DNA from: Massilia sp.
Lineage (GTDB): Bacteria; Pseudomonadota; Gammaproteobacteria; Burkholderiales; Burkholderiaceae_D
Assembly (NCBI GenBank): GCA_025359245.1
Contig: JANYGW010000179.1
Span: 1-34,705 of the forward strand
DNA: 34,705 bases
Direction: 5' to 3'
Shown: piece by piece, positions 4,680 through 25,581 of the stretch
Layout of the letters: each line of letters begins with the position of its first letter
Numbering within the stretch: position 1 is the stretch's first letter
Position numbers and translations under genes: made by a program
The notes under the pieces: model-generated
Told to the model about the DNA's origin: nothing
The model's database searches: none
The model's input: the letters and a program-made list of their open reading frames with translations, nothing else

Positions 4680-5258
4680 ATGAAACCCACCAACAATGAC
4701 CTGGCGCCGGACAGTCCCCTGGTGTGCACCATCGGTCACTCGAACCGGACACTGGGCATCTTTGTCGATCTGCTTCAGCGTAACGAGATCGTCCGCGTGC
4801 TCGATGTGCGCACCGTGCCGCGCTCGCGCCACAATCCGCAGTTCAACCAGGATACGCTGCCCGCTACGCTGGACGCGCTCGGCATCGCCTATACGCATCT
4901 GCCGGGGCTCGGCGGCTTGCGCCACGCGCGGCCCGATTCACCGAACGCGGGCTGGCGCAATTTGTCGTTTCGCGGCTACGCCGATTACATGCAGTCCCGG
5001 CAGTTCGTCGACAATGTCGAGCGCGTGGCGGACCTGGCGCACGCCGAACGTTGCGTGCTGATGTGCGCCGAAGCGGTTCCCTGGCGCTGCCACCGCTCGA
5101 TGATCGGCGACGCCTTGCTGGTGCGAGGCATCCGCGTCGAAGACATTGTCGGACCGAAGGGGCGCAAAGCGCACGTGCTGACCGCCTTCGCGCACATCGA
5201 CGGAACCCAGATCACCTATCCGCCGGAACAGGCCCTGCCGGACGCGCATAAAAAATAA
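4680..5258 (+). CDS. DUF488 domain-containing protein
   Basis: A 192-residue soluble protein of the DUF488 family. It starts with 'CTIGHSNRTLGIFVDLLQ' (about 16-33), the family's opening signature. It continues with 'VLDVRTVPRSRHNPQFN' and has the conserved cysteine centre 'CAEAVPWRCHRSMIGD', with C129, E131, C137 and H138 visible. The biochemical role of DUF488 is not established; members are often near DNA- or stress-related genes, but here it simply trails the liv cluster. ATG 4680 was taken as start; an in-frame GTG at 4671 is an alternative. No strong Shine-Dalgarno site is seen, so it may be read through from livF. Its stop codon lies inside the operator-like palindrome of the next gene. 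Confidence 0.88.
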   Translation: MKPTNNDLAPDSPLVCTIGHSNRTLGIFVDLLQRNEIVRVLDVRTVPRSRHNPQFNQDTLPATLDALGIAYTHLPGLGGLRHARPDSPNAGWRNLSFRGYADYMQSRQFVDNVERVADLAHAERCVLMCAEAVPWRCHRSMIGDALLVRGIRVEDIVGPKGRKAHVLTAFAHIDGTQITYPPEQALPDAHKK

Positions 5259-5275
5259 TACGACCGTACTATTAT
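5255..5275. promoter_or_regulatory. Operator-like palindrome before the fadB-like gene
   Basis: An imperfect 21-base inverted repeat with arms ATAATA and TATTAT around a CGACCGTAC core; 8 of 10 base pairs match. It contains ACGACCGTACTA (5260-5271), which is repeated exactly before the thiolase operon at 19414-19425. A -10-like TATGAT overlaps its 3' side (5274-5279) with only a poor -35. A TetR-type fatty-acid or acyl-CoA repressor is the likely reader (inference). Confidence 0.6.
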
Positions 5276-5318
5276 GATGTATAGTTGATGGATTGCTTCA
5301 ACTAATAAAGGAAGAGAC

Positions 5319-7561: not shown

Positions 7562-7807
7562 ATGAAAATCATAAATATCCACGAAGCAAAGACTCATCTT
7601 TCCCGGCTGGTCGAGGAAGCAGCAAAAGGGGATTCATTCATTATCGCCAAGTCGGGACGCCCGGTGGCGCTAGTGAGCGCTTTTCAGGAGCCAGAAAAGG
7701 CAGTGGTTCGTCGCTTGGGATTTTTGTCCGGCCATATATCTGTTCCCGCTGATTTCGATGAAATGGGGCGCACACACATTGAAGATCTATTCAATGGCGC
7801 CGCATGA
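7562..7807 (+). CDS. Type II antitoxin, Phd/YefM family
   Basis: An 81-residue DNA-binding antitoxin. The N-terminus 'MKIINIHEAKTHLSRLVEEA' followed by 'FIIAKSGRPVALVSA' is the standard Phd/YefM fold signature. The C-terminal part ('FDEMGRTHIEDLFNGAA') would wrap the toxin. ATG 7562 was chosen over an upstream in-frame candidate at 7538 because it matches the family start and follows GAGGTG. The last codons overlap the toxin start by ATGA, so synthesis is coupled. An inverted repeat over its promoter suggests self-repression. Base composition is somewhat less GC-rich than the surrounding genes, fitting a mobile module. Confidence 0.93.
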   Translation: MKIINIHEAKTHLSRLVEEAAKGDSFIIAKSGRPVALVSAFQEPEKAVVRRLGFLSGHISVPADFDEMGRTHIEDLFNGAA

Positions 7808-8190
7808 AATACCTACTGGACACCCACATACTACTTTGGGCCTCAGGCAAGCCAGAGGCACTATCGAAAACGGCGCGAGCGCTGCTTGAAGATCCCGCCA
7901 GTGAGCTGATTTTCAGTGCTGCAAGCTTGTGGGAAATCGCGATCAAACGTGGTCTGGGTCGGGGCGATTTCCAAGTCGATCCTCGTCTGTTGCGCCGGGG
8001 ACTGCTCGACAACGGGTACATGGAATTGCCGATTACAGGAGCCCATACTTTGGCGATCGATGGATTGCCGCTGATTCACAAGGATCCATTTGATCGCATC
8101 TTGATCGCGCAGGCGATTACTGAGGGAGTAACGTTGTTGACGGCCGATCCAGTCGTGGCGCGGTATCCAGTCTCAATACGCAAAATTTAA
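7804..8190 (+). CDS. Type II toxin, PIN-domain ribonuclease (VapC-like)
   Basis: A 128-residue PIN-domain protein, the likely RNase toxin of the pair. The acidic metal-binding residues expected for VapC-like nucleases are present: D6 in 'YLLDTHILLW', E44 in 'SLWEIAIK', D94/D97 in 'HKDPFDRILIAQA', and D115 in 'LLTADPVV'. Length and the 'LLDTHILLWA' opening match the subfamily usually paired with Phd-type antitoxins, as it is here. All catalytic positions look intact, so the toxin is probably active. It starts within the antitoxin stop codon and ends 19 bases before the convergent slipin gene. No convincing terminator is seen between them. Confidence 0.93.
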   Translation: MKYLLDTHILLWASGKPEALSKTARALLEDPASELIFSAASLWEIAIKRGLGRGDFQVDPRLLRRGLLDNGYMELPITGAHTLAIDGLPLIHKDPFDRILIAQAITEGVTLLTADPVVARYPVSIRKI

Positions 8191-11072: not shown

Positions 11073-11621
11073 TCAGCCGCGCTGCCAGAGCATCCGTTTC
11101 AAGGTATTGTCCTTGGCGACATAATGGTGGTACAGGCCGGCCACGGCGTGCAAACCTATCAGGAAATAGCCGACCGTCGCGCCGGTTTCATGGAGCTCCT
11201 TGATTGTGTCGGCGGCCGCCTTGCTCTTGCCGATCAGCGGCGCCAGGTGCAGGCCGAAGAAGGGAATCGGCTTGCCGCTGGCGCTCAGGATCAGCCAGCC
11301 TGCTACCGGCAAACCGAGCATCAGCGCGTACAGGGCCACTTTCATCGATGTCGCCAGCAATGCCTGCCAGCGCGGCAGCACCGGCGCGATGCGCGGCGTC
11401 GGCCCGGCCACGGCGACGGCCAGGCGCAGCAGGGCCAGCAGCAGCACCGACAAGCCCAGCATGTAGTGCCAGGTCTTCATTGCGTCGCGCTCGGCACTGC
11501 CTTTCGGGAAAATGCCGCGCAGTTCCATGCATGCATACACGGCCGCGAGCAACAGCAGCATGAACCAATGGAGTGCAATCGGCAGCCAGCCGTAGCGTTC
11601 TGTGTTGTTTTTCCAATTCAT
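11073..11621 (-). CDS. Cytochrome b561 (CybB-type di-heme membrane protein)
   Basis: A 182-residue inner-membrane protein with four membrane helices. The four haem-ligand histidines of the CybB family are in place: H18 ('ALHW'), H52 ('WHYMLG'), H144 ('LHETGA') and H158 ('GLHAVAGLYHHYV'). It would move electrons between quinone and a periplasmic or soluble acceptor; some members act on superoxide. ATG 11621 is preceded by AAGGA at good spacing and matches the family start. It lies 35 bases after the P-type ATPase stop on the same strand, so the two are probably co-transcribed from the FNR-type promoter at 14257-14297. Confidence 0.93.
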   Translation of the reverse strand: MNWKNNTERYGWLPIALHWFMLLLLAAVYACMELRGIFPKGSAERDAMKTWHYMLGLSVLLLALLRLAVAVAGPTPRIAPVLPRWQALLATSMKVALYALMLGLPVAGWLILSASGKPIPFFGLHLAPLIGKSKAAADTIKELHETGATVGYFLIGLHAVAGLYHHYVAKDNTLKRMLWQRG

Positions 11622-11656
11622 GCGCTTATTCCTTAAAGATAATGCGACAGCATAGC

Positions 11657-14209
11657 TCAAGCGCGCCGCCGTAACCGATTTGCCGAGGCAAGCAGCAGCA
11701 AGGTGGCGCTTACCAGGCCGAGCGTCAACAGCACATGGACTACGCCCGGGCGCTCAAAATGAAACAAACGATTCATGGCCGGCAGGAACAGCGCCAGTCC
11801 CAGCATCAGCAAGGCAACGCCGATGACCCACCACAGCGCCGGATTGCGGCGGCACAGAGCGGCGCGCCACGACCAGGTCCAGGAACGGTTGATGAAGATG
11901 AGCCAGATGTCGCCGACGATCATGGCGCCGAAGGTCAGCGCGCGCGCTTGCCCGACGTCCAGGCCGCCCGCCAGCGCGACCTGGTAGAGCGCCAGCAGCA
12001 CGGCCAGCAGCAGCGTGCCCTGCTGCGCGCCGCGGATCAGCAGGGCCCGGTTGAAGATGCGTTCAGTGGCCGGGCGCGGGGCGCGCCGCATCACGTCCGT
12101 CTCTTCCGCTTCGGCCTCGAACACGATCGAACAGGTCGGATCGATCAGCAGTTCGAAGAATACGATATGCACCGGCAGCAGGATCAGCGGCCATCCCAGC
12201 ATCACCGGCAGCATCGACAGTGCCGCAATCGGGATATGGGCGGCAACAATGAAGACGACGGCCTTGCGGATGTTGTCGACGATGCGCCGGCCCAGTGCGA
12301 TGGCGGCCACGATCGAACCGAAGTCATCGTCGAGCAAGACCAGCGCCGCCGCTTCGCGCGCCACGTCGGTGCCGCGCCCGCCCATGGCGATGCCGATATG
12401 GGCGGCCTGCAGCGCCGGCGCATCGTTGACGCCGTCGCCGGTCATCGCGACGATCTCGCCGCCATCCCTGAGCGCGGCCACCAGCCGCAGCTTCTGTTCG
12501 GGCTGCACACGGCAACAGACGGCGACCTCGCGCAAGCGCCGCTGCAACTGGAGGTCGTCGAGCGCCGCCATGTCGGCCCCGGTCAGCACCCCGCCATGCG
12601 TGTCCAGCCCGCATTGCGCGGCCACCGACAGCGCGGTGGCCGGATAGTCGCCCGTCATCATGATCACGCGCAGGCCGGCCGCGTGGCACTGCGCGATGGC
12701 CGGCGGCACGCTGGGCCGCACCGGATCGGCCAGCGCGACCAGGCCCACGAAGCGGAAGTCGAAATCGTGCTGGATCGGCGGCAGCGCATGCTGGCGGAAG
12801 CTGGCCTTGGCCACCGCCAGCACGCGCAGGCCCTGGGACGCCGCGCGGTCGACCTGTGCGCCGATCGCGCGCGCCTGTGCAGGCGCGAGGTGGCACAGGT
12901 CGATGATGGCCTCCGGCGCGCCTTTGGCGGCGATCACGTAGTCGACCAGGTCGGGCGATTGCCAGACGCGCGACATGGCCAGCAGTTCCGGCGACAGCGG
13001 GTATTCGTCCACCAGGCGCCAGCCGACGTGGATGTGCTCGGTGCCGGCCAGCGCGGCCTGGCCGCTTTGCTGGATCGCCTTTTCCATCGGATCGAAGGGA
13101 TCGCGGTGGCTCGACAGCATCGCAAACTCCAGTGTGGCGTGAAACGCTTCGGGGAAGTGACTCGGCATGCAAGCGGCGCCATCGGCAAAGGCATGCACGG
13201 CGTCGCCGGCGATGACCTGGGCCACGGCCATGCGGTTTTCGGTCAGGGTGCCGGTCTTGTCGACACACAGCACGGTTGCCGCGCCCAGCATCTCGATGGC
13301 CGCAATGCGGCGCGTCAGCACCTGCTTGCTGGCGATGCGCCACGCGCCCAGGCCGAGGAAGATGGTCAGTATCAGCGGCAGTTCGGCCGGCAGCAGGGCC
13401 ATCGCCAGCGTCAGGCCGGCCAGGATGCCATTGAGCCAGTCGGCCCGCGCGATGCCATACCAGGCAGCGAGCAGGATAACCAGCACGATGCTCGACAGCG
13501 CAACCAGCTTGACCGCGCGCGCGGTCTCGTCCTGCAGCAGGCTGGTCTGTGTTTCCAGCGCCGACAGCGCCTTGCCGATCCGTCCCAGCGTGGTGCCGGC
13601 GCCGGTCGCCAGCACCTGTGCCGTGCCCTTGCCCTGGACCACCAGCGAGCCGGAATACAGGAAAGGCTGGTCATCGCCGCCGGGCGCGGCGCATTGCGCC
13701 GTCGGCGCCGCGCCGGCCAGTTTGCGCACCGGCACCGACTCGCCGCTGAGCAGCGATTCATCGATGCTCATGGCCTTGCCGGCCACCAGGAAGGCATCGG
13801 CCGGCACGCGGTCGCCTTCGCACAGGAACACGATATCGCCGGGAACGACTTCACGGCCGGGAATGCGGCGCTGCTGGCCGGCGCGCAACACCAGCGCGCG
13901 CGGGCTGGACAGGTCGCGCAGCGCTTCGAGCGCACGTTCGCTCTTGCGTTCTTGCACGAAGCTCAGGCCCATGACGACCAGGACCGAACCGAGCAGGATG
14001 TAAGCGTCCGCGCGGCTGCCCAGCAGGAGGTAAATGCTGCCGCAGGCGATCAAGAGCAGGAACATGGGCTCGCGCACCACGGTCCACGCGATGGCAAGCA
14101 GGGAGCGCGGCCTGGCGGCCGGCAATTCATTCCAGCCGCACGCTTGCAGCCGGCGCAGCGCCTCGCGTGCGCTGAGGCCAGTCAAGGCATCGGTGGTGGT
14201 GTCGGGCAT
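11657..14209 (-). CDS. Cation-transporting P-type ATPase (P2-like)
   Basis: An 850-residue P-type ATPase. The order is an N-terminal cation-ATPase domain (5-60), M1-M2, an actuator domain with SGES (155-158, where TGES is usual), M3-M4 with PAELP (274-278), and the phosphorylation site DKTGTLT (D317). Then come the nucleotide-binding motif KGAPE (429-433), MMTGD (517-521), TGDGVND (590-596) and six C-terminal helices with 'LLIDPTCSIVFEAEAEE'. There is no N-terminal heavy-metal domain and no CPC motif, so it is not a P1B copper or zinc pump. The overall look is of the Ca/Mn/Mg-type P2 group, but the substrate is undetermined. AGGAAG precedes ATG 14209. A perfect FNR-type box lies 75 bases upstream. 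Confidence 0.93.
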   Translation of the reverse strand: MPDTTTDALTGLSAREALRRLQACGWNELPAARPRSLLAIAWTVVREPMFLLLIACGSIYLLLGSRADAYILLGSVLVVMGLSFVQERKSERALEALRDLSSPRALVLRAGQQRRIPGREVVPGDIVFLCEGDRVPADAFLVAGKAMSIDESLLSGESVPVRKLAGAAPTAQCAAPGGDDQPFLYSGSLVVQGKGTAQVLATGAGTTLGRIGKALSALETQTSLLQDETARAVKLVALSSIVLVILLAAWYGIARADWLNGILAGLTLAMALLPAELPLILTIFLGLGAWRIASKQVLTRRIAAIEMLGAATVLCVDKTGTLTENRMAVAQVIAGDAVHAFADGAACMPSHFPEAFHATLEFAMLSSHRDPFDPMEKAIQQSGQAALAGTEHIHVGWRLVDEYPLSPELLAMSRVWQSPDLVDYVIAAKGAPEAIIDLCHLAPAQARAIGAQVDRAASQGLRVLAVAKASFRQHALPPIQHDFDFRFVGLVALADPVRPSVPPAIAQCHAAGLRVIMMTGDYPATALSVAAQCGLDTHGGVLTGADMAALDDLQLQRRLREVAVCCRVQPEQKLRLVAALRDGGEIVAMTGDGVNDAPALQAAHIGIAMGGRGTDVAREAAALVLLDDDFGSIVAAIALGRRIVDNIRKAVVFIVAAHIPIAALSMLPVMLGWPLILLPVHIVFFELLIDPTCSIVFEAEAEETDVMRRAPRPATERIFNRALLIRGAQQGTLLLAVLLALYQVALAGGLDVGQARALTFGAMIVGDIWLIFINRSWTWSWRAALCRRNPALWWVIGVALLMLGLALFLPAMNRLFHFERPGVVHVLLTLGLVSATLLLLASANRLRRRA

Positions 14210-19407: not shown

Positions 19408-19436
19408 TTGCGAACGACCGTACTAAAATGTGCTAT
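19408..19436 (+). promoter_or_regulatory. Promoter with embedded operator for the thiolase operon
   Basis: TTGCGA (19408-19413) and TGCTAT (19431-19436) are separated by 17 bases. The spacer contains ACGACCGTACTA (19414-19425), identical to the motif in the palindrome at 5255-5275. A protein bound there would block RNA polymerase. The rest of the 275-base gap between the receiver gene and the thiolase shows no other clear feature. Confidence 0.6.
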
Positions 19437-19481
19437 TCTCGTATCGAACAACCCAGCACCCATTCACCTCAGGAGACACAA

Positions 19482-20660
19482 ATGATAGACGCCGTCATCG
19501 TATCGACCGCCCGCACCGGTTTGGCCAAATCGTGGAAGGGCGCCTTCAACATGACCCATGGCGCGACGCTGGGCGGCCATGCGCTGGCCGCGGCCATCGC
19601 GCGCGCCACGGTCGAACCGGGCGAGATCGAGGACGTCATCATGGGCTGCGCCAATCCGGAAGGCGCGACGGGCGCCAACATCGCGCGCCAGATCGCGCTG
19701 CGCGCCGGCTGCCCGGTGAGCACCGGCGGCATGACGGTCAACCGCTTTTGCTCGTCCGGCCTGCAAACCATCGCGCTGGCGGCCCAGCGCATCCTGGCCG
19801 GCGAGGGCGACATCTACGCCGCCGGCGGCGTCGAATCGATCTCCTGCGTGCAGCAGGAAATGAACACCCACATGCTGGCCGATCCGTGGCTGCAGGAACA
19901 CAAGCCGGCGCTGTACTGGCCGATGCTGCAGACCGCCGAGACGGTCGCCAAGCGCTACAACATCGGGCGCGACCGCCAGGATGAATACGGCGTGCAGAGC
20001 CAGCAGCGCGCCGCCAACGCCCAGGCGGCCGGCAAGTTCGACGCCGAAATCGCCCCGATGACCACCGTCATGGGCATCGCCGACAAGGCATCGGGCCTGC
20101 TGACGACGCGCGAAGTGACGATCTCGGCGGACGAAGGCATCCGCGCCGACACCACCATCGAAGCGGTCTCGAAAATCCGTTCGGCGGTGCCGGGCGGCGT
20201 GATCAGCGCCGGCAATGCAAGCCAGTTTTCGGACGGCGCCTCGGTTGCCGTGCTGATGAGCAGCCGGCTGGCCGAAGTGCGCGGCCTGCAGCCGCTCGGC
20301 ATCTTCCGCGGCTTCGCCGTGGCCGGCTGCGAGCCGGACGAAATGGGCATCGGTCCCGTGTTCGCGATTCCGAAACTGCTGAAGAAGGCTGGCCTGACGG
20401 TCGGCGACATCGGCCTGTGGGAACTGAACGAAGCGTTCGCCGTGCAGGTGCTGTACTGCGCCGACCGGCTCGGCATCCCGATGGACCGCCTGAACGTCAA
20501 CGGCGGCGCGATCGCGGTCGGCCATCCGTACGGCGTGTCGGGCGCGCGCCTGGTCGGCCATGCGCTGATCGAAGGCAAGCGGCGCGGCGTCAAGTACGTG
20601 GTCGTGACCATGTGCATCGGCGGCGGGCAGGGCGCCGCAGGCCTGTTCGAAGTCGTTTAA
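19482..20660 (+). CDS. Acetyl-CoA C-acyltransferase (3-ketoacyl-CoA thiolase)
   Basis: A 392-residue thiolase that splits 3-ketoacyl-CoA with CoA, the last step of a beta-oxidation round. The nucleophile is C90 in '[13 protein letters not shown]'. 'NEAFA' (316-320), H348 in '[16 protein letters not shown]' and C378 in '[13 protein letters not shown]' complete the active site. AGGAG lies 8 bases before ATG 19482, which fixes the start. It is the first gene of a six-gene operon. The promoter carries the same operator-like motif as the fadB-like gene, which points to joint control. The chain-length preference cannot be read; degradative rather than biosynthetic use is inferred from the acyl-CoA dehydrogenase next to it. 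Confidence 0.95.
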
Positions 20661-20712: not shown

Positions 20713-22566
20713 ATGCAATCGAAAATCCTGTCGCGCCGCGACATCGAGTTCTTGTTATATCAGTGGCTCGATGTCGAGTCGCTGACCAGCCGGCCCCGGT
20801 TCGCCGACCATAGCCGCGAAACCTTCAACGCCGCGCTCGACACCGCCGAACAGATCGCGACCGACCTGTTCGCGCCCCACAATAAAAAGAACGACAGCCA
20901 CGAACCCCACTTCGACGGCGAGAGAGTGACCATCATCCCCGAGGTGAAGGTCGCGCTCGACGCGTTTTCCAAGGCCGGCCTGATGGCGTCGGCCCAGGAC
21001 TACGATTTCGACGGCATGCAGCTGCCGTGCGTGGTTGACAAGGCGCTGTCGGCCTATTTTACGGCGGCCAATATCGCCACCTCGGCGTACATCTTCCTCA
21101 CGGTCGGCAACGCCAACACGCTGCTCAAGTGCGCCACGCCGCACCAGGTCGAGCGCTTCGTGCGCCCGCTGCTGGCGGGGAAATTCTTCGGCACCATGTG
21201 CTTGTCGGAGCCGCAGGCCGGATCGAGCCTGTCGGACATCACCACGCGCGCCGAACCGGATTCGGTGGACGGCCCCGAGGGCGAGCGCCAGTACCGGCTG
21301 ACCGGTAACAAGATGTGGATTTCGGCCGGTGAGCACGACCTGGCCGGCAATATCGTGCACCTGGTGCTGGCCAAGATCCCCGGCCCGGACGGGCGTTTGA
21401 TCCCCGGCGTGAAAGGCATCTCGCTGTTCATCGTGCCCAAGTTCCTGGTCGGCGACGATGGCGCGATCGGCCAGCGCAACGATGTCGTGCTGGCGGGCCT
21501 GAACCACAAGATGGGCAGCCGCGGCACCACCAACTGCCTGCTCAATTTCGGCGAAGGGCGCCATCGGCCCGATGGCAAGGCCGGCGCGATCGGCTACCTG
21601 GTCGGCCAGCCGCACCAGGGCCTGATGAATATGTTCCACATGATGAACGAAGCCCGCATCGGGGTCGGCATGTGCGCCGCGGTGCTGGGCGTGACCGGCT
21701 ACCTGCACGCGCTCGACTACGCGCGCAACCGTCCGCAAGGGCGCCATCCGGCCGAAAAGGATCCGGTCAAGCCGCAGGTGGCGATCATCGAACACACCGA
21801 CGTGCGGCGCATGCTGCTGGCGCAAAAGGCGTATGCTGAAGGCGCGATGGCGCTGGTGATGTATTCGGCGCGCCTGGTCGACGAGCACAATACGGCGCCC
21901 GATCCCGAAGCGCGTGCGCGCGCCGGCCAGCTGCTCGACTTCCTCACGCCGATCACCAAGTCGTGGCCGTCGCAATGGTGCGTCGAGGCCAACAGCCTGG
22001 CGATCCAGGTGCACGGCGGCTATGGCTATACGCGCGAATACAACGTCGAACAGTTCTACCGCGATAACCGCTTGAATGCGATCCACGAGGGCACGCACGG
22101 GATCCACGGCTTGGACCTGTTGGGACGCAAGGTATCCATGCAAGGCGGCGCGCTGTTCAAGGCCATCAGCGCCGAGGTGGCGGCCTGCATCGCCACCGTG
22201 CGCAAGGCGGCGGTATCGACCGAGCTAAATGGCTATGCCGACCGGCTTGAGGAACAATGGGAGCGCATCGCTCCGGTGACCGCGGCGCTGTACGGCGCGG
22301 GCGACATGAACAAGACGCTGGCCAATGCCAGCCTGTATCTGGAAGCGGTCGGCCACACGGTAGTCGCGTGGATGTGGCTGGAACAGGCACTGGTCGCCGC
22401 GCGTGCCATGGAAGGCGCGAGCGACGATGACCGCAATTTCTATCTCGGCAAGCTACAAGCCTGCCGCTATTTCTTCCACTGGGAACTGCCCAAAGTGCAG
22501 CCCCAGTTGGATCTGCTGGCCAGCATCGACACCACGACGCTCGACATGCAGGATGCGTGGTTCTAA
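20713..22566 (+). CDS. Acyl-CoA dehydrogenase, long form (about 600 residues, DmdC/AcdA-like)
   Basis: A 617-residue flavoprotein that oxidises acyl-CoA to 2-enoyl-CoA. The FAD/substrate segment 'TMCLSEPQAGSSLSDITTRA' (161-180) and 'YRLTGNKMWISAGEHDL' are typical. The catalytic Glu is most likely E459 in 'LNAIHEGTHGIHGLDLLGRK', the position used by the long-form group that includes 3-methylmercaptopropionyl-CoA dehydrogenase (DmdC). A C-terminal domain of about 130 residues follows, as expected for this group. ATG 20713 follows CAGGA. Electrons would pass to ETF, which is not encoded here. Substrate is unknown: straight-chain fatty acyl-CoA is the default, sulfur-containing or branched acyl-CoA possible. 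Confidence 0.94.
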   Translation: MQSKILSRRDIEFLLYQWLDVESLTSRPRFADHSRETFNAALDTAEQIATDLFAPHNKKNDSHEPHFDGERVTIIPEVKVALDAFSKAGLMASAQDYDFDGMQLPCVVDKALSAYFTAANIATSAYIFLTVGNANTLLKCATPHQVERFVRPLLAGKFFGTMCLSEPQAGSSLSDITTRAEPDSVDGPEGERQYRLTGNKMWISAGEHDLAGNIVHLVLAKIPGPDGRLIPGVKGISLFIVPKFLVGDDGAIGQRNDVVLAGLNHKMGSRGTTNCLLNFGEGRHRPDGKAGAIGYLVGQPHQGLMNMFHMMNEARIGVGMCAAVLGVTGYLHALDYARNRPQGRHPAEKDPVKPQVAIIEHTDVRRMLLAQKAYAEGAMALVMYSARLVDEHNTAPDPEARARAGQLLDFLTPITKSWPSQWCVEANSLAIQVHGGYGYTREYNVEQFYRDNRLNAIHEGTHGIHGLDLLGRKVSMQGGALFKAISAEVAACIATVRKAAVSTELNGYADRLEEQWERIAPVTAALYGAGDMNKTLANASLYLEAVGHTVVAWMWLEQALVAARAMEGASDDDRNFYLGKLQACRYFFHWELPKVQPQLDLLASIDTTTLDMQDAWF

Positions 22567-22576
22567 AGGAAACGAC

Positions 22577-22879
22577 ATGATCAAGCACATCGTAATGTGG
22601 AAGCTGAAGGACTTTGCCGAAGGTTCCGACCGCGCGGCCAATGCCATCAAGATGAAGCAAAAGCTGGATGGCTGCGCCAAGCTGTCGCCCGGCATTCTGA
22701 AATTCGAGGTGGCGCTGGCCCAGCCCGGGCTGGAAGCGACCTACGACGTGATCCTGTACTCGGAATTCGAAAACAAGGAAGCGCTGGCCGAATACGCAGC
22801 CCATCCGACTCACAAGGCCATCATGCCGTTCATCGGCGCCGTGCGCGACGAACGCCAGTGCATGGACTATCAAACCTGA
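22577..22879 (+). CDS. Dabb (stress-responsive alpha/beta barrel) domain protein
   Basis: A 100-residue soluble protein. 'MIKHIVMWKLKDFAEG' at the start and 'YDVILYSEFENKEALAEYAA' with 'HPTHKA' in the second half are the signature of the dimeric alpha/beta barrel (Dabb) family. AAAGGA precedes ATG 22577. Dabb proteins include small cyclases, such as olivetolic acid cyclase, and many proteins without known function. Its place between an acyl-CoA dehydrogenase gene and an SDR gene, 10 and 16 bases away, shows it belongs to the same operon. It may bind or modify an acyl-CoA or ketone intermediate (inference). Confidence 0.92.
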   Translation: MIKHIVMWKLKDFAEGSDRAANAIKMKQKLDGCAKLSPGILKFEVALAQPGLEATYDVILYSEFENKEALAEYAAHPTHKAIMPFIGAVRDERQCMDYQT

Positions 22880-22895
22880 TCTTCAAAGGACACTT

Positions 22896-23678
22896 ATGCG
22901 CACTACCCAAGAGTTGTTTTCCCTGGCCGGCAAGACGGCCCTGATCACCGGCGGTTCGCGCGGGCTTGGCCTGCAGATGGCCGAAGCGCTGGGCGAGCAG
23001 GGCGCCACGCTGGTGCTGTCCTCGCGCAAGCAGTCCGACCTCGACGAAGCGGTCGCGCACCTGAAGGAACGTGGCATCACCGCTTCCGCCATCGCGGCCG
23101 ACCTGTCCGACGAAACCCAGGTCAAGCCGCTGGTCGACGAAGCGCTCAAGCGCCTCGGCCACATCGATATCCTGATCAACAACGCTGGCGCCAGCTGGGG
23201 CGCGCCGGCCGAAGACCACCCGATCGAAGCCTGGGACAAGGTGATGAACCTGAACATCCGCAGCATCTTTCTGGTGTCGCAGGCAGTGGGCAAGCTGTCG
23301 ATGATCCCGCGCAAATACGGGCGCATCATCAACATCGCCTCGATCGCCGGGCTGGCCGGCAATCCGCCGGGGACGATGAAGACCATCGCCTACAACACCT
23401 CCAAGGGCGCGGTGATCAATTTCACGCGCACGCTGGCGGGCGAGTGGGGACCTTACGGCATCACCGTGAATGCCATTGCACCGGGCTTTTTCCCGTCCAA
23501 GATGACCAAGGGCGTGCTCGAGAGCATAGGCGAAGAAAAGCTGGCAAAGGGTTCGCCTCTGGGCCGCATCGGCGACGACGAAGACCTGAAAGGCGTGGCG
23601 CTGCTGTTCGCGTCCGACGCGGGCAAGCACATCACCGGCCAGACGCTGGCGGTTGATGGCGGCGTATCGGCGGTGTAA
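22896..23678 (+). CDS. SDR family oxidoreductase (FabG-like)
   Basis: A 260-residue classical short-chain dehydrogenase. The cofactor loop is 'TGGSRGLG' (18-25), with 'NNAG' at 95-98. Catalytic S149, Y166 and K170 lie in 'IINIASIAG' and 'YNTSKGA'. The C-terminus 'TGQTLAVDGGVSAV' is usual for FabG-like enzymes. S44-R45 after the second strand ('VLSSRKQ') hints at NADP(H), but this is not certain. AAAGGA lies before ATG 22896. In this operon it is likely to act on a 3-hydroxyacyl-CoA or an alcohol/ketone intermediate. It ends 2 bases before the MDR reductase gene. Confidence 0.94.
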   Translation: MRTTQELFSLAGKTALITGGSRGLGLQMAEALGEQGATLVLSSRKQSDLDEAVAHLKERGITASAIAADLSDETQVKPLVDEALKRLGHIDILINNAGASWGAPAEDHPIEAWDKVMNLNIRSIFLVSQAVGKLSMIPRKYGRIINIASIAGLAGNPPGTMKTIAYNTSKGAVINFTRTLAGEWGPYGITVNAIAPGFFPSKMTKGVLESIGEEKLAKGSPLGRIGDDEDLKGVALLFASDAGKHITGQTLAVDGGVSAV

Positions 23679-23680
23679 AC

Positions 23681-24676
23681 ATGACGACGTACCAACGTAT
23701 TGTGCTGGCTTCGCGCCCGCGCGGGGCAGTGTTGCCCGAAAATTTCCGCATCGAGAGCGTGGCGCTGTCTGAACCGGGCGCCGGCGAGGTCGTAGTGCGC
23801 AACCATTACCTGTCGCTCGACCCGTACATGCGCGGCCGCATGAGCGAGGCCAAAAGCTACGCCAGCGCCCAGGCGCTGGACGAGACCATGATCGGCGGCA
23901 CCGCAGGCGAAGTCGTGGCGTCGAATAATTCGCGCTTTGCGGTTGGCGACATGGTGGTCGGCATGCTGGGCTGGGCCGAGATGGGCGTGTCGGACGGCGC
24001 TTTGCTGCGCAAGGTCGACGCCGGCCGCATCCCGCTGTCGGCCTACTTGGGCGTGCTGGGCATGCCCGGCATGACTGCCTGGTATGGGCTGAACCAGATC
24101 ATGCGCCCGAAAGCTGGCGAGACGGTGCTGGTGTCGGCCGCCAGCGGCGCGGTCGGCAGCGCAGTCGGGCAACTGGCCAAGCTGCACGGCTGCCGCGCGA
24201 TCGGCATCGCCGGCGGTCCGGAAAAATGCGTGTACGTGGTCGACGAACTGGGCTTCGATGCCTGCATCGATTACAAGGCGGGCACGCTGGCCGCCGACCT
24301 GGCCGCCGCCGCGCCCGACGGCATCGACGCGCTGTTTGAAAACGTCGGCGGGGCTGGATTCGACGCGGCGCTGCCGCTGATGAACCCCTTTGGGCGGATC
24401 GCGCTATGCGGCCTGATTGCCGGCTACAACGGCGCCGACCTGGCGCTGCGCAATGTGCGCTTTTTGCTGACCAGCCGCTTGTCGCTGCAAGGCTTCATCG
24501 TCACCGAGCACCTGGACCTGTGGCCGCAAGGCCTGGGCGAACTGGGCGCGCTGGTGGCGGACGGAAAACTCAAGTACCGCGAAACGGTGGCGCAGGGACT
24601 GGCCGCCGCTCCGGATGCATTCATCGGCCTGCTCAATGGCCGCAATTTCGGCAAACAACTGGTAAAACTCACATGA
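23681..24676 (+). CDS. NADP-dependent oxidoreductase, MDR superfamily (leukotriene B4 dehydrogenase / CurA-like)
   Basis: A 331-residue medium-chain reductase without zinc ligands. The N-terminal 'YLSLDPYMRGRMSE' and the cofactor loop 'VLVSAASGAVGSAVGQLAK' match the prostaglandin reductase/LTB4 dehydrogenase branch (PTGR/CurA). These enzymes reduce the C=C bond of alpha,beta-unsaturated ketones, aldehydes or acyl compounds with NADPH. It starts 2 bases after the SDR stop and overlaps the next SDR gene by ATGA, so the three reductases are translated together. In the operon it could remove reactive enones or saturate a double bond of an unusual acyl chain (inference). Confidence 0.94.
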   Translation: MTTYQRIVLASRPRGAVLPENFRIESVALSEPGAGEVVVRNHYLSLDPYMRGRMSEAKSYASAQALDETMIGGTAGEVVASNNSRFAVGDMVVGMLGWAEMGVSDGALLRKVDAGRIPLSAYLGVLGMPGMTAWYGLNQIMRPKAGETVLVSAASGAVGSAVGQLAKLHGCRAIGIAGGPEKCVYVVDELGFDACIDYKAGTLAADLAAAAPDGIDALFENVGGAGFDAALPLMNPFGRIALCGLIAGYNGADLALRNVRFLLTSRLSLQGFIVTEHLDLWPQGLGELGALVADGKLKYRETVAQGLAAAPDAFIGLLNGRNFGKQLVKLT

Positions 24677-25581
24677 AAAACTTCAAAGACAAAGTCGCCG
24701 TGATCACCGGCGGCGCGGCTGGACTCGGCCGTGAATTCGCACTGACCGCCCACAAGCTGGGCATGAAGCTGGTACTGGCCGATGTGCAGCAGGATGCCCT
24801 CGACGCAACCACGGCCGAACTCGAAGCCCAGGGCGCGCAGGTGCTGGCCATGATCTGCGACGTGCGCAAGACCGAGCAGGTGCAGGCGCTGGCCGATGCG
24901 ACCATGGCCAAATTCGGCGCTGTGCACCTGGTATTCAATAACGCCGGCGTCGGTTCGGGCGGACTGGTGTGGGAAAACACGGAAGCGGACTGGGAATGGG
25001 TGCTGGGCGTGAATCTGTGGGGCGTGATCCACGGCGTACGCATCTTCACCAAGCTGATGCTCGAATGCGCGAAGACCGATCCGGACTACGAAGGGCATAT
25101 CGTCAATACGGCATCGATGGCTGGTTTGCTCAATGCGCCGACGATGGGCGTGTACAACGTGTCCAAGCATGCGGTGGTGTCGCTGTCGGAATCGCTGTAC
25201 CACGACCTGCAACTGGTCGAAGCGCCGATCGGCGCGTCGGTGCTGTGCCCGTACTTTGTGCCGACCGGGATCAGCCAGTCGCACCGCAACCGTCCGGCCG
25301 ATGTGGCGATGACGACCGGCGCGACCGCCAGCCAGAAGGTGGCGCAGGCAATGACGATGAAGGCGGTGGAGTCGGGCAAGGTGTCGGCGGCCGACGTCTC
25401 GCAGATCACGTTCGACGCGATTCGCGACGGCCAGTTCTACATCTATTCGCACCCGGGCGCGCTGGCCAGCGTGGCGGACCGGATGAACGAGATCATCAAC
25501 CAGAAGAACCCGGGCGATCCGTACAAGAACACGCCGCAGGTACGCGACATGCTGCGCGAGAAAATGAAAGCCGCGAAGTAG
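24673..25581 (+). CDS. SDR family oxidoreductase, extended C-terminus
   Basis: A 302-residue short-chain dehydrogenase. The cofactor loop 'TGGAAGLG' (12-19), 'NNAG' (89-92), S148, Y161 and K165 ('YNVSKHA') are all present. D37 after the second strand ('VLADVQQ') suggests NAD(H) preference. The last 80 residues ('QFYIYSHPGALASVADRMNE') are longer than in FabG-type enzymes and match the group of about 280-300 residues acting on bulky hydrophobic substrates. It is the last gene of the acyl-CoA operon and starts inside the preceding stop codon (ATGA). A hairpin repeat begins 4 bases after its stop. The substrate is unknown. Confidence 0.93.
   Translation: MKNFKDKVAVITGGAAGLGREFALTAHKLGMKLVLADVQQDALDATTAELEAQGAQVLAMICDVRKTEQVQALADATMAKFGAVHLVFNNAGVGSGGLVWENTEADWEWVLGVNLWGVIHGVRIFTKLMLECAKTDPDYEGHIVNTASMAGLLNAPTMGVYNVSKHAVVSLSESLYHDLQLVEAPIGASVLCPYFVPTGISQSHRNRPADVAMTTGATASQKVAQAMTMKAVESGKVSAADVSQITFDAIRDGQFYIYSHPGALASVADRMNEIINQKNPGDPYKNTPQVRDMLREKMKAAK

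Follow-up and report, generated by a model that had tools for sequence, protein, structure and literature searches.

A 20-bp palindrome before beta-oxidation genes of Massilia is the predicted operator of a FadP-type TetR repressor

Results

Gene content of the locus

The window analyzed here is the whole of contig C15, 34,705 nucleotides, from a 4.96-Mb Massilia sp. assembly in 244 contigs (81.66% complete, 4.63% contamination). It carries a fadB-like gene and a probable operon headed by a thiolase gene (Table 1). Among the best 80 of 305 relatives, those nearest to the fadB-like protein are Massilia proteins, with up to 93% identity; the protein scores below the NCBIfam equivalog cut-offs for FadB and FadJ. 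An earlier, sequence-only reading of this DNA had described the thiolase operon as lacking an enoyl-CoA hydratase, and Pfam found none in the five genes scanned, with the 100-aa ORF lying outside the scan. The fadB-like gene may, as that reading suggested, make up for this lack, but it need not do so: two further hydratase domains are encoded in the operon of the regulator itself in a relative (see below).

Two minor features were also recorded. A 128-aa ORF with a PIN domain is located at 7804-8190, about 400 bp after the fadB-like gene. A 3.8-kb contig of the same assembly (G000:C31:2-3809, locus L227) carries a second copy of the thiolase/acyl-CoA dehydrogenase/100-aa ORF/short-chain dehydrogenase order, the thiolase part being 85% identical; this copy may be a paralogue or contamination from a related strain.

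Table 1. Features of the window and counted operator targets elsewhere in the assembly (C, contig)
Feature	Position	Strand	Remark
Operator 1, AATAATACGACCGTACTATT	5254..5273	.	Imperfect palindrome; fadB-like start codon follows after 46 bp
12-mer, copy 1	5260..5271	+	Inner left half and right half of operator 1
-10 box TATAGT, fadB-like gene	5280..5285	+	20 bp after start of ACG core
fadB-like gene, enoyl-CoA hydratase and 3-hydroxyacyl-CoA dehydrogenase, 695 aa	5319..7406	+	Pfam ECH_1, 3HCDH_N, 3HCDH
Operator 2, TTGCGAACGACCGTACTAAA	19408..19427	.	Unequal halves, one strong and one weaker; 55 bp upstream of thiolase start
12-mer, copy 2	19414..19425	+	Within operator 2
-10 box TATTCT, thiolase operon	19434..19439	+	20 bp after start of ACG core
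Acetyl-CoA C-acyltransferase (thiolase), first gene of probable operon	19482..20660	+	NCBIfam PRK07108 equivalog, above cut-off
Acyl-CoA dehydrogenase with Acyl-CoA_dh_C domain	20713..22566	+	Pfam, from longer ORF start 20698; start from gene prediction
100-aa ORF of thiolase operon	22577..22879	+	Gene prediction
Short-chain dehydrogenase of thiolase operon	22896..23678	+	Pfam
NADPH-dependent curcumin-reductase-like oxidoreductase	23681..24676	+	Pfam; NCBIfam 419 bits, cut-off 440
Second short-chain dehydrogenase, last gene of probable operon	24673..25581	+	Pfam
APH/acyl-CoA dehydrogenase operon	C41:5131		Counted target
Quinone oxidoreductase	C21:14778		Counted target
Porin	C19:43799		Counted target
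Molybdopterin oxidoreductase and divergent small ORF	C129:17692		Counted target
GDSL hydrolase	C121:14793		Counted target
Transhydrogenase pntA	C47:3615		Counted target
AMP-binding acyl-CoA ligase	C143		19.5 bits; counted on score and gene alone

A repeated 12-mer is part of a 20-bp palindrome

The sequence-only reading started from a 12-mer, ACGACCGTACTA, before each of the two loci, and both exact copies were confirmed on the + strand (Table 1). A third exact copy, C41:5133-5144, brings the number in the assembly to three. Under a first-order Markov model of the window, 0.0004 exact copies were expected in the window and 0.055 in the genome, compared with the 2 and 3 found. The window holds 827 repeated 12-mer pairs, and repetition of a 12-mer alone is thus unremarkable. 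In eight of the pairs, both centres fall in intergenic DNA no more than 150 bp upstream of a predicted start, and ACGACCGTACTA is the sole same-strand pair among them; the other seven are inverted, six being local (2 to 18 bp apart) and one distant and GC-rich (14273/20668). The reversed 12-mer, used as a control, also had 2 exact genome matches. With up to 2 mismatches, the control matched more often than the motif (439 versus 62 matches), so the bare 12-mer with 1 or 2 mismatches was dropped as a detector.

The 12-mer is a mere fragment of the real signal, a 20-bp imperfect palindrome whose symmetric consensus over four site classes is AATAGNACGNNCGTNCTATT. The palindrome that had been noticed around the first copy is real: operator 1 has 8 of 10 symmetric pairs, and 8 or more were reached by 10 of the 3052 intergenic 20-mers of the window. 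Operator 2, with a degenerate left half, has 6 of 10 symmetric pairs, a level reached by 92 of the 3052, and its symmetry by itself is therefore not notable.

A matrix built from fadB promoters alone missed operator 2 (0.3 bits on one strand and 3.0 on the other), and for this reason a symmetric matrix of four equally weighted site classes was used instead. No window site as such went into it; the orthologous sites used do, however, coincide in part letter for letter with sites of this genome (fadB, C19, C121, and C129), and the scores of these sites are consequently not independent. In the window, operator 1 ranked first at 30.2 bits and operator 2 second at 23.4 bits, with the next place at 10.8 bits. 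Leaving all fadB promoters out of the matrix lowered operator 1 to 27.8 bits; leaving out the thiolase class lowered operator 2 to 15.6 bits, still second, with the next place at 12.1 bits. Simulated sequence yielded 19 places of at least 14 bits and 7 of at least 16 bits per 5 Mb. Operator 1 is a strong site; for operator 2, more weight falls on its conservation, the 12-mer that the two have in common, and its geometry.

The earlier reading had named a high frequency of the motif genome-wide, with no enrichment before acyl-CoA genes, as counting against it, and this was not what was found: the 20-bp operator is rare in the assembly, occurring in 8 places with up to 3 mismatches, versus 5 matches for the reversed control. 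Across seven genus genomes, the 20-bp pattern with 3 mismatches gave 115 matches, with the palindrome counted on each of the two strands, and the reversed control gave 66. A lone weak match thus proves nothing, and the evidence lies in recurrence before the same gene.

The operator and its distance to the -10 box are conserved

Conservation was assessed at the best 80 of 305 fadB-like loci, which belong mostly to Massilia, Janthinobacterium, Duganella, Undibacterium, and other Oxalobacteraceae, with some metagenome bins. The ACGNNCGT core lies within 200 bp of the start in 78 of these 80, and L082 has the same site placed further upstream; L096, which has only 65 bp of upstream DNA, was left out of the counts. 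The core is present in 79 of 79 readable fadB-like promoters and in 14 of 14 thiolase promoters, so that absence from orthologous promoters, the second outcome named as adverse, was not what was found either. At least 16 bits were reached by 78 of the 79 fadB promoters with the operator matrix, which the same sites had helped to build. The operator arms are AT-rich in most of them, the left arms being GC-richer in L102 (operator score, 14.6 bits), L106, L111, L115, and L127. All 14 thiolase promoters, from genus genomes including this one, read TTTGCGAACG, then AC (11 promoters) or GT (3 promoters), and then CGTACTA and TATTCT.

Both copies had been described as overlapping promoter elements, and this was borne out by their identical spacing from the -10 boxes (Table 1). 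Among the fadB promoters, the core-to--10 offset is 20 bp in 48 of 79 and 19 to 23 bp, with a TATA-type box, in 78 of 79; in the remaining promoter, none of the boxes sought matched. The offset is 20 bp in all 14 thiolase promoters. With this geometry, the operator covers the -35/spacer region, as expected for a repressor that blocks polymerase.

A TetR gene with the operator in its own promoter is found in relatives

The 20-bp pattern search of seven genus genomes brought up a site family, AATAGTACGAGCGTTCGGAT, that is present in all six relatives (one letter differs in G005) and was not found in this genome. In three relatives examined (L208 to L210), a site of this type lies 46 to 67 bp before a TetR gene that heads a beta-oxidation operon encoding acyl-CoA dehydrogenase, hydroxyacyl-CoA dehydrogenase/hydratase, thiolase, and hydratase, with a DUF4442 gene in two; the Pfam basis is the L208 genes and the DUF4442 gene of L209. 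The candidate regulator is about 199 aa long and belongs to the TetR family (Pfam TetR_N and TetR_C_13 in the orthologue L208:3805-4404).

The regulator was then sought in 30 genomes, picked for spread from those that carry the 80 fadB loci, with the genomes of L082 and L096 among them. A TetR homologue with 76 to 98% identity was present in all 30, the operator preceded its start by 42 to 114 bp in all 30 (0 to 3 mismatches of 18), and the same acyl-CoA dehydrogenase gene adjoined it in all 30. Judged from matching contig coordinates, some of these genomes are apparently identical to members of the seven-genome search, and the two sets are accordingly not independent. A TetR gene carrying the motif in its own promoter, as the sequence-only reading had advised looking for, was therefore found in relatives, but that gene is absent from the present assembly.

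In an order-wide sample of 60 genomes, this one included, a homologue was present at E 1e-20 in 11 and absent from 49. The operator, within 4 mismatches of 18, accompanies 9 of the 12 homologue loci in this sample; L288, L292, and L293 miss the threshold, with L288 and L292 keeping the ACGNNCGT core. An acyl-CoA dehydrogenase orthologue adjoins 6 of the 12 (L282 to L287). Of 40 aligned homologues, 34 (28 of the 30 and L282 to L287) share the helix-turn-helix segment MSKSGVFAHFGSRE unchanged, and L288 to L293 have altered forms of it; L237 and L253, which start at an unusual place, were left out of this alignment of the 30 and the order-sample loci. At least 15 plasmid records gave matches to the TetR regulator at 33 to 44% identity.

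The window had been said to hold no regulator gene, and indeed none of the 18 TetR_N matches of the assembly is on this contig. A FadP-type TetR protein was not found anywhere in the 81.66%-complete assembly, the best match having 23% identity (E 1e-4). When a 13-kb region of a relative was compared with the assembly (40 of 513 first-look candidates scored), the TetR gene, the other genes of its operon, and the three genes preceding it found no good match; what did match was a dehydrogenase stretch (67%), a later gene (11089-12389; 74%), and many short repeats. The regulator block was probably unsampled, which is the simplest reading given an assembly that is 82% complete; the gene may also have been truly lost from this genome. 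If the FadP-type reading is true, the TetR gene of this species is expected to have AATAGTACGANCGTTCG upstream.

The operator precedes further genes

The proposal of a two-locus regulon was too narrow: nine places in this assembly, window promoters included, precede plausible targets (Table 1). For 8 of these 9, one or more relatives have the site ahead of the orthologous gene as well, and this recurrence before the same genes counts for the shared-operator reading. Among the seven genus genomes, site and orthologous gene occur together for fadB in 7, APH in 7, the quinone oxidoreductase in 6, and the porin in 5. The corresponding counts are 4 of 7 for the molybdopterin oxidoreductase (a fifth, G003, by site letters only), 4 of 7 for the GDSL hydrolase (57 to 60% identity), and 2 of 7 for pntA; a site precedes an alpha/beta hydrolase gene in 4 of 7, this genome not among them. 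An orthologue of the acyl-CoA ligase gene lies directly upstream of the fadB-like gene in G002 and G004.

Six further places were not counted: C77:4071, which lies ahead of a YceI gene and overlaps a phosphatase gene at its 3' end; C196:10747, which precedes a chemotaxis receptor gene; C41:18518, before an acyl-CoA dehydrogenase gene at 11.9 bits; C49:19761, inside a predicted gene; C51:51154, at 6.2 bits; and C64:3828, which overlaps a flagellar-looking gene. Pattern matches L220 to L223, L225, and L226 of the relatives, to which no reference protein matched, were not used.

Other TetR proteins and other explanations

The assembly has 18 TetR proteins, and one of these might read the sites in place of a FadP-type repressor. 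Three of them, L048, L040, and L044, have sites of at least 14 bits in their own promoters, and their genes, in contrast to that of the FadP-type protein, are present here. L040 (G000:C38:19408-20037) would be the first candidate: its gene is divergent from a lipid-transfer thiolase/acyl-CoA dehydrogenase/CoA-transferase operon, and its promoter has a related half site, TATAGGTCAGTCGTACTATT (15.0 bits). However, a different palindrome, AGGTCGNNCGACCT, is found in the promoters of 12 of 14 genus L040 orthologues, this genome included, and is thus probably L040's own operator; in addition, L040 (recognition segment ISLSNVQHYYQSK) and the FadP-type protein are unlike in this segment. L048 has the palindrome ATTAGACCGATCGGTCTATA (18.1 bits; G000:C8, upstream of 9164), but its core is ACCGNNCGGT rather than TACGNNCGTA. 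L044 has TATTATACGGGCGTATAATA (14.4 bits). We consider it unlikely that any of these proteins is the reader of the operator. The L040 promoters (L294 to L307) also have a second site, whose right half reads TACTA in 6 of 14, with this genome among them, and ACCT in the other 8; with a TACTA half, as in the FadP-type operator, the second site is possibly a hybrid.

The motif lies at the expected -35 position, at a near-fixed distance from the -10 box, and could be imagined to be a promoter element (-35-like or UP element) instead of a repressor site. That is very improbable for a motif that is palindromic, bears no resemblance to TTGACA, can face either way with respect to the gene (it is reversed at C41), is as rare as the 8 places given above, and is also present at the promoter of the co-occurring TetR gene. 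A chance repeat, which the number of repeated 12-mer pairs in the window and the exact matches of the reversed control would allow, is scarcely credible given that relatives keep the core in 79 of 79 fadB-like and 14 of 14 thiolase promoters.

Discussion

Both copies of the motif are very probably operators of a FadP-type TetR repressor of fatty acid beta-oxidation, and the central proposal of the sequence-only reading, a shared operator of one TetR-type repressor with a beta-oxidation theme, is to that extent supported as a very likely prediction. Sequence comparison underlies each line of argument: the conservation of the operator, its geometry relative to the -10 box, its presence at the predicted regulator's own promoter, and its co-occurrence with that gene in relatives. 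From these we infer binding, repression, and an inducer, as follows. A repressor dimer would bind the 20-bp palindrome, which occupies the -35/spacer region directly before the -10 box, and would thereby block RNA polymerase at the promoters of the fadB-like gene and the thiolase operon, as well as at six or perhaps seven others in this assembly. The repressor would be released by an acyl-CoA or a similar intermediate once fatty acids are at hand. The repressor gene, at the head of its own beta-oxidation operon, would repress itself through the same operator.

The predicted system has a close counterpart that has already been reported from related bacteria. The accessible parts of PMC5343134 and PMC12543098 describe FadP as a TetR regulator of fatty acid degradation in Ralstonia, Burkholderia, and Comamonadaceae that acts on 12 operons in R. 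solanacearum, and report better growth of a Ralstonia fadP deletion strain on adipate; both, as far as those parts go, credit the proposal of the FadP regulon to Kazakov et al. 2009, and PMC12543098 states there that the FadP inducer has not been identified. As in those accounts, the present system is found in Burkholderiales and combines a TetR repressor gene beside a beta-oxidation operon with scattered beta-oxidation operons that have a common motif. The first feature was seen as the order TetR-ACAD-HCD/ECH-thiolase-ECH in L208 to L210, with the ACAD gene adjoining in 30 of 30, and the second as one operator at several beta-oxidation operons and the regulator promoter in relatives. The tested features fit, save for the regulator's absence from this assembly, and the system was therefore filed as a FadP-type regulon. 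Our confidence that FadP is the best match is high but not complete, the likeness being drawn from descriptions rather than from direct comparison of protein or motif with a named FadP. The groups given for FadP in the accessible part of PMC5343134 are Ralstonia, Burkholderia, and Comamonadaceae, whereas the relatives compared here are mostly Oxalobacteraceae genera; if our reading is true, the FadP picture would extend beyond the three groups named in that part of the paper.

Two other regulators of fatty acid degradation resemble the predicted one less closely. PsrA is likewise a TetR-family regulator of this pathway in gammaproteobacteria, but the accessible part of PMC5343134 says that in Ralstonia and Burkholderia it has shifted to fatty acid biosynthesis. 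No PsrA model was among the nine NCBIfam matches of the TetR orthologue, the sole PsrA model seen being Vibrio-type (NF053516). FadR also places fatty acid degradation under transcription factor control, but it belongs to the GntR family and, in the source material accessible to us, is described for gammaproteobacteria.

A literature search that left subscription literature mostly outside its reach returned PMC5343134, PMC12543098, and PMC9045290 as the only FadP papers and no relevant paper on TetR control of fatty acid degradation in Massilia, which says little about what is in print. What had been a repeat without a name can now be described as an operator: it has a named candidate regulator, a complete consensus, and, in Massilia-type bacteria, a list of targets.

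The target list also bears on how far such a regulon might reach. We hold the chances evenly balanced that, in Massilia and its kin, the predicted FadP-type repressor runs through one operator a lipid-use program wider than beta-oxidation. With equal reserve, that program can be pictured as comprising outer-membrane entry (porin), lipid release (GDSL hydrolase and alpha/beta hydrolase), NADPH (pntA), a PIG3-type quinone oxidoreductase, and a molybdopterin oxidoreductase. The pntA site hints at an NADPH supply under the same control.

The distance of the operator from the transhydrogenase gene pntA is 50 to 53 bp both here (G000:C47:3615-3634) and in one relative (L217).
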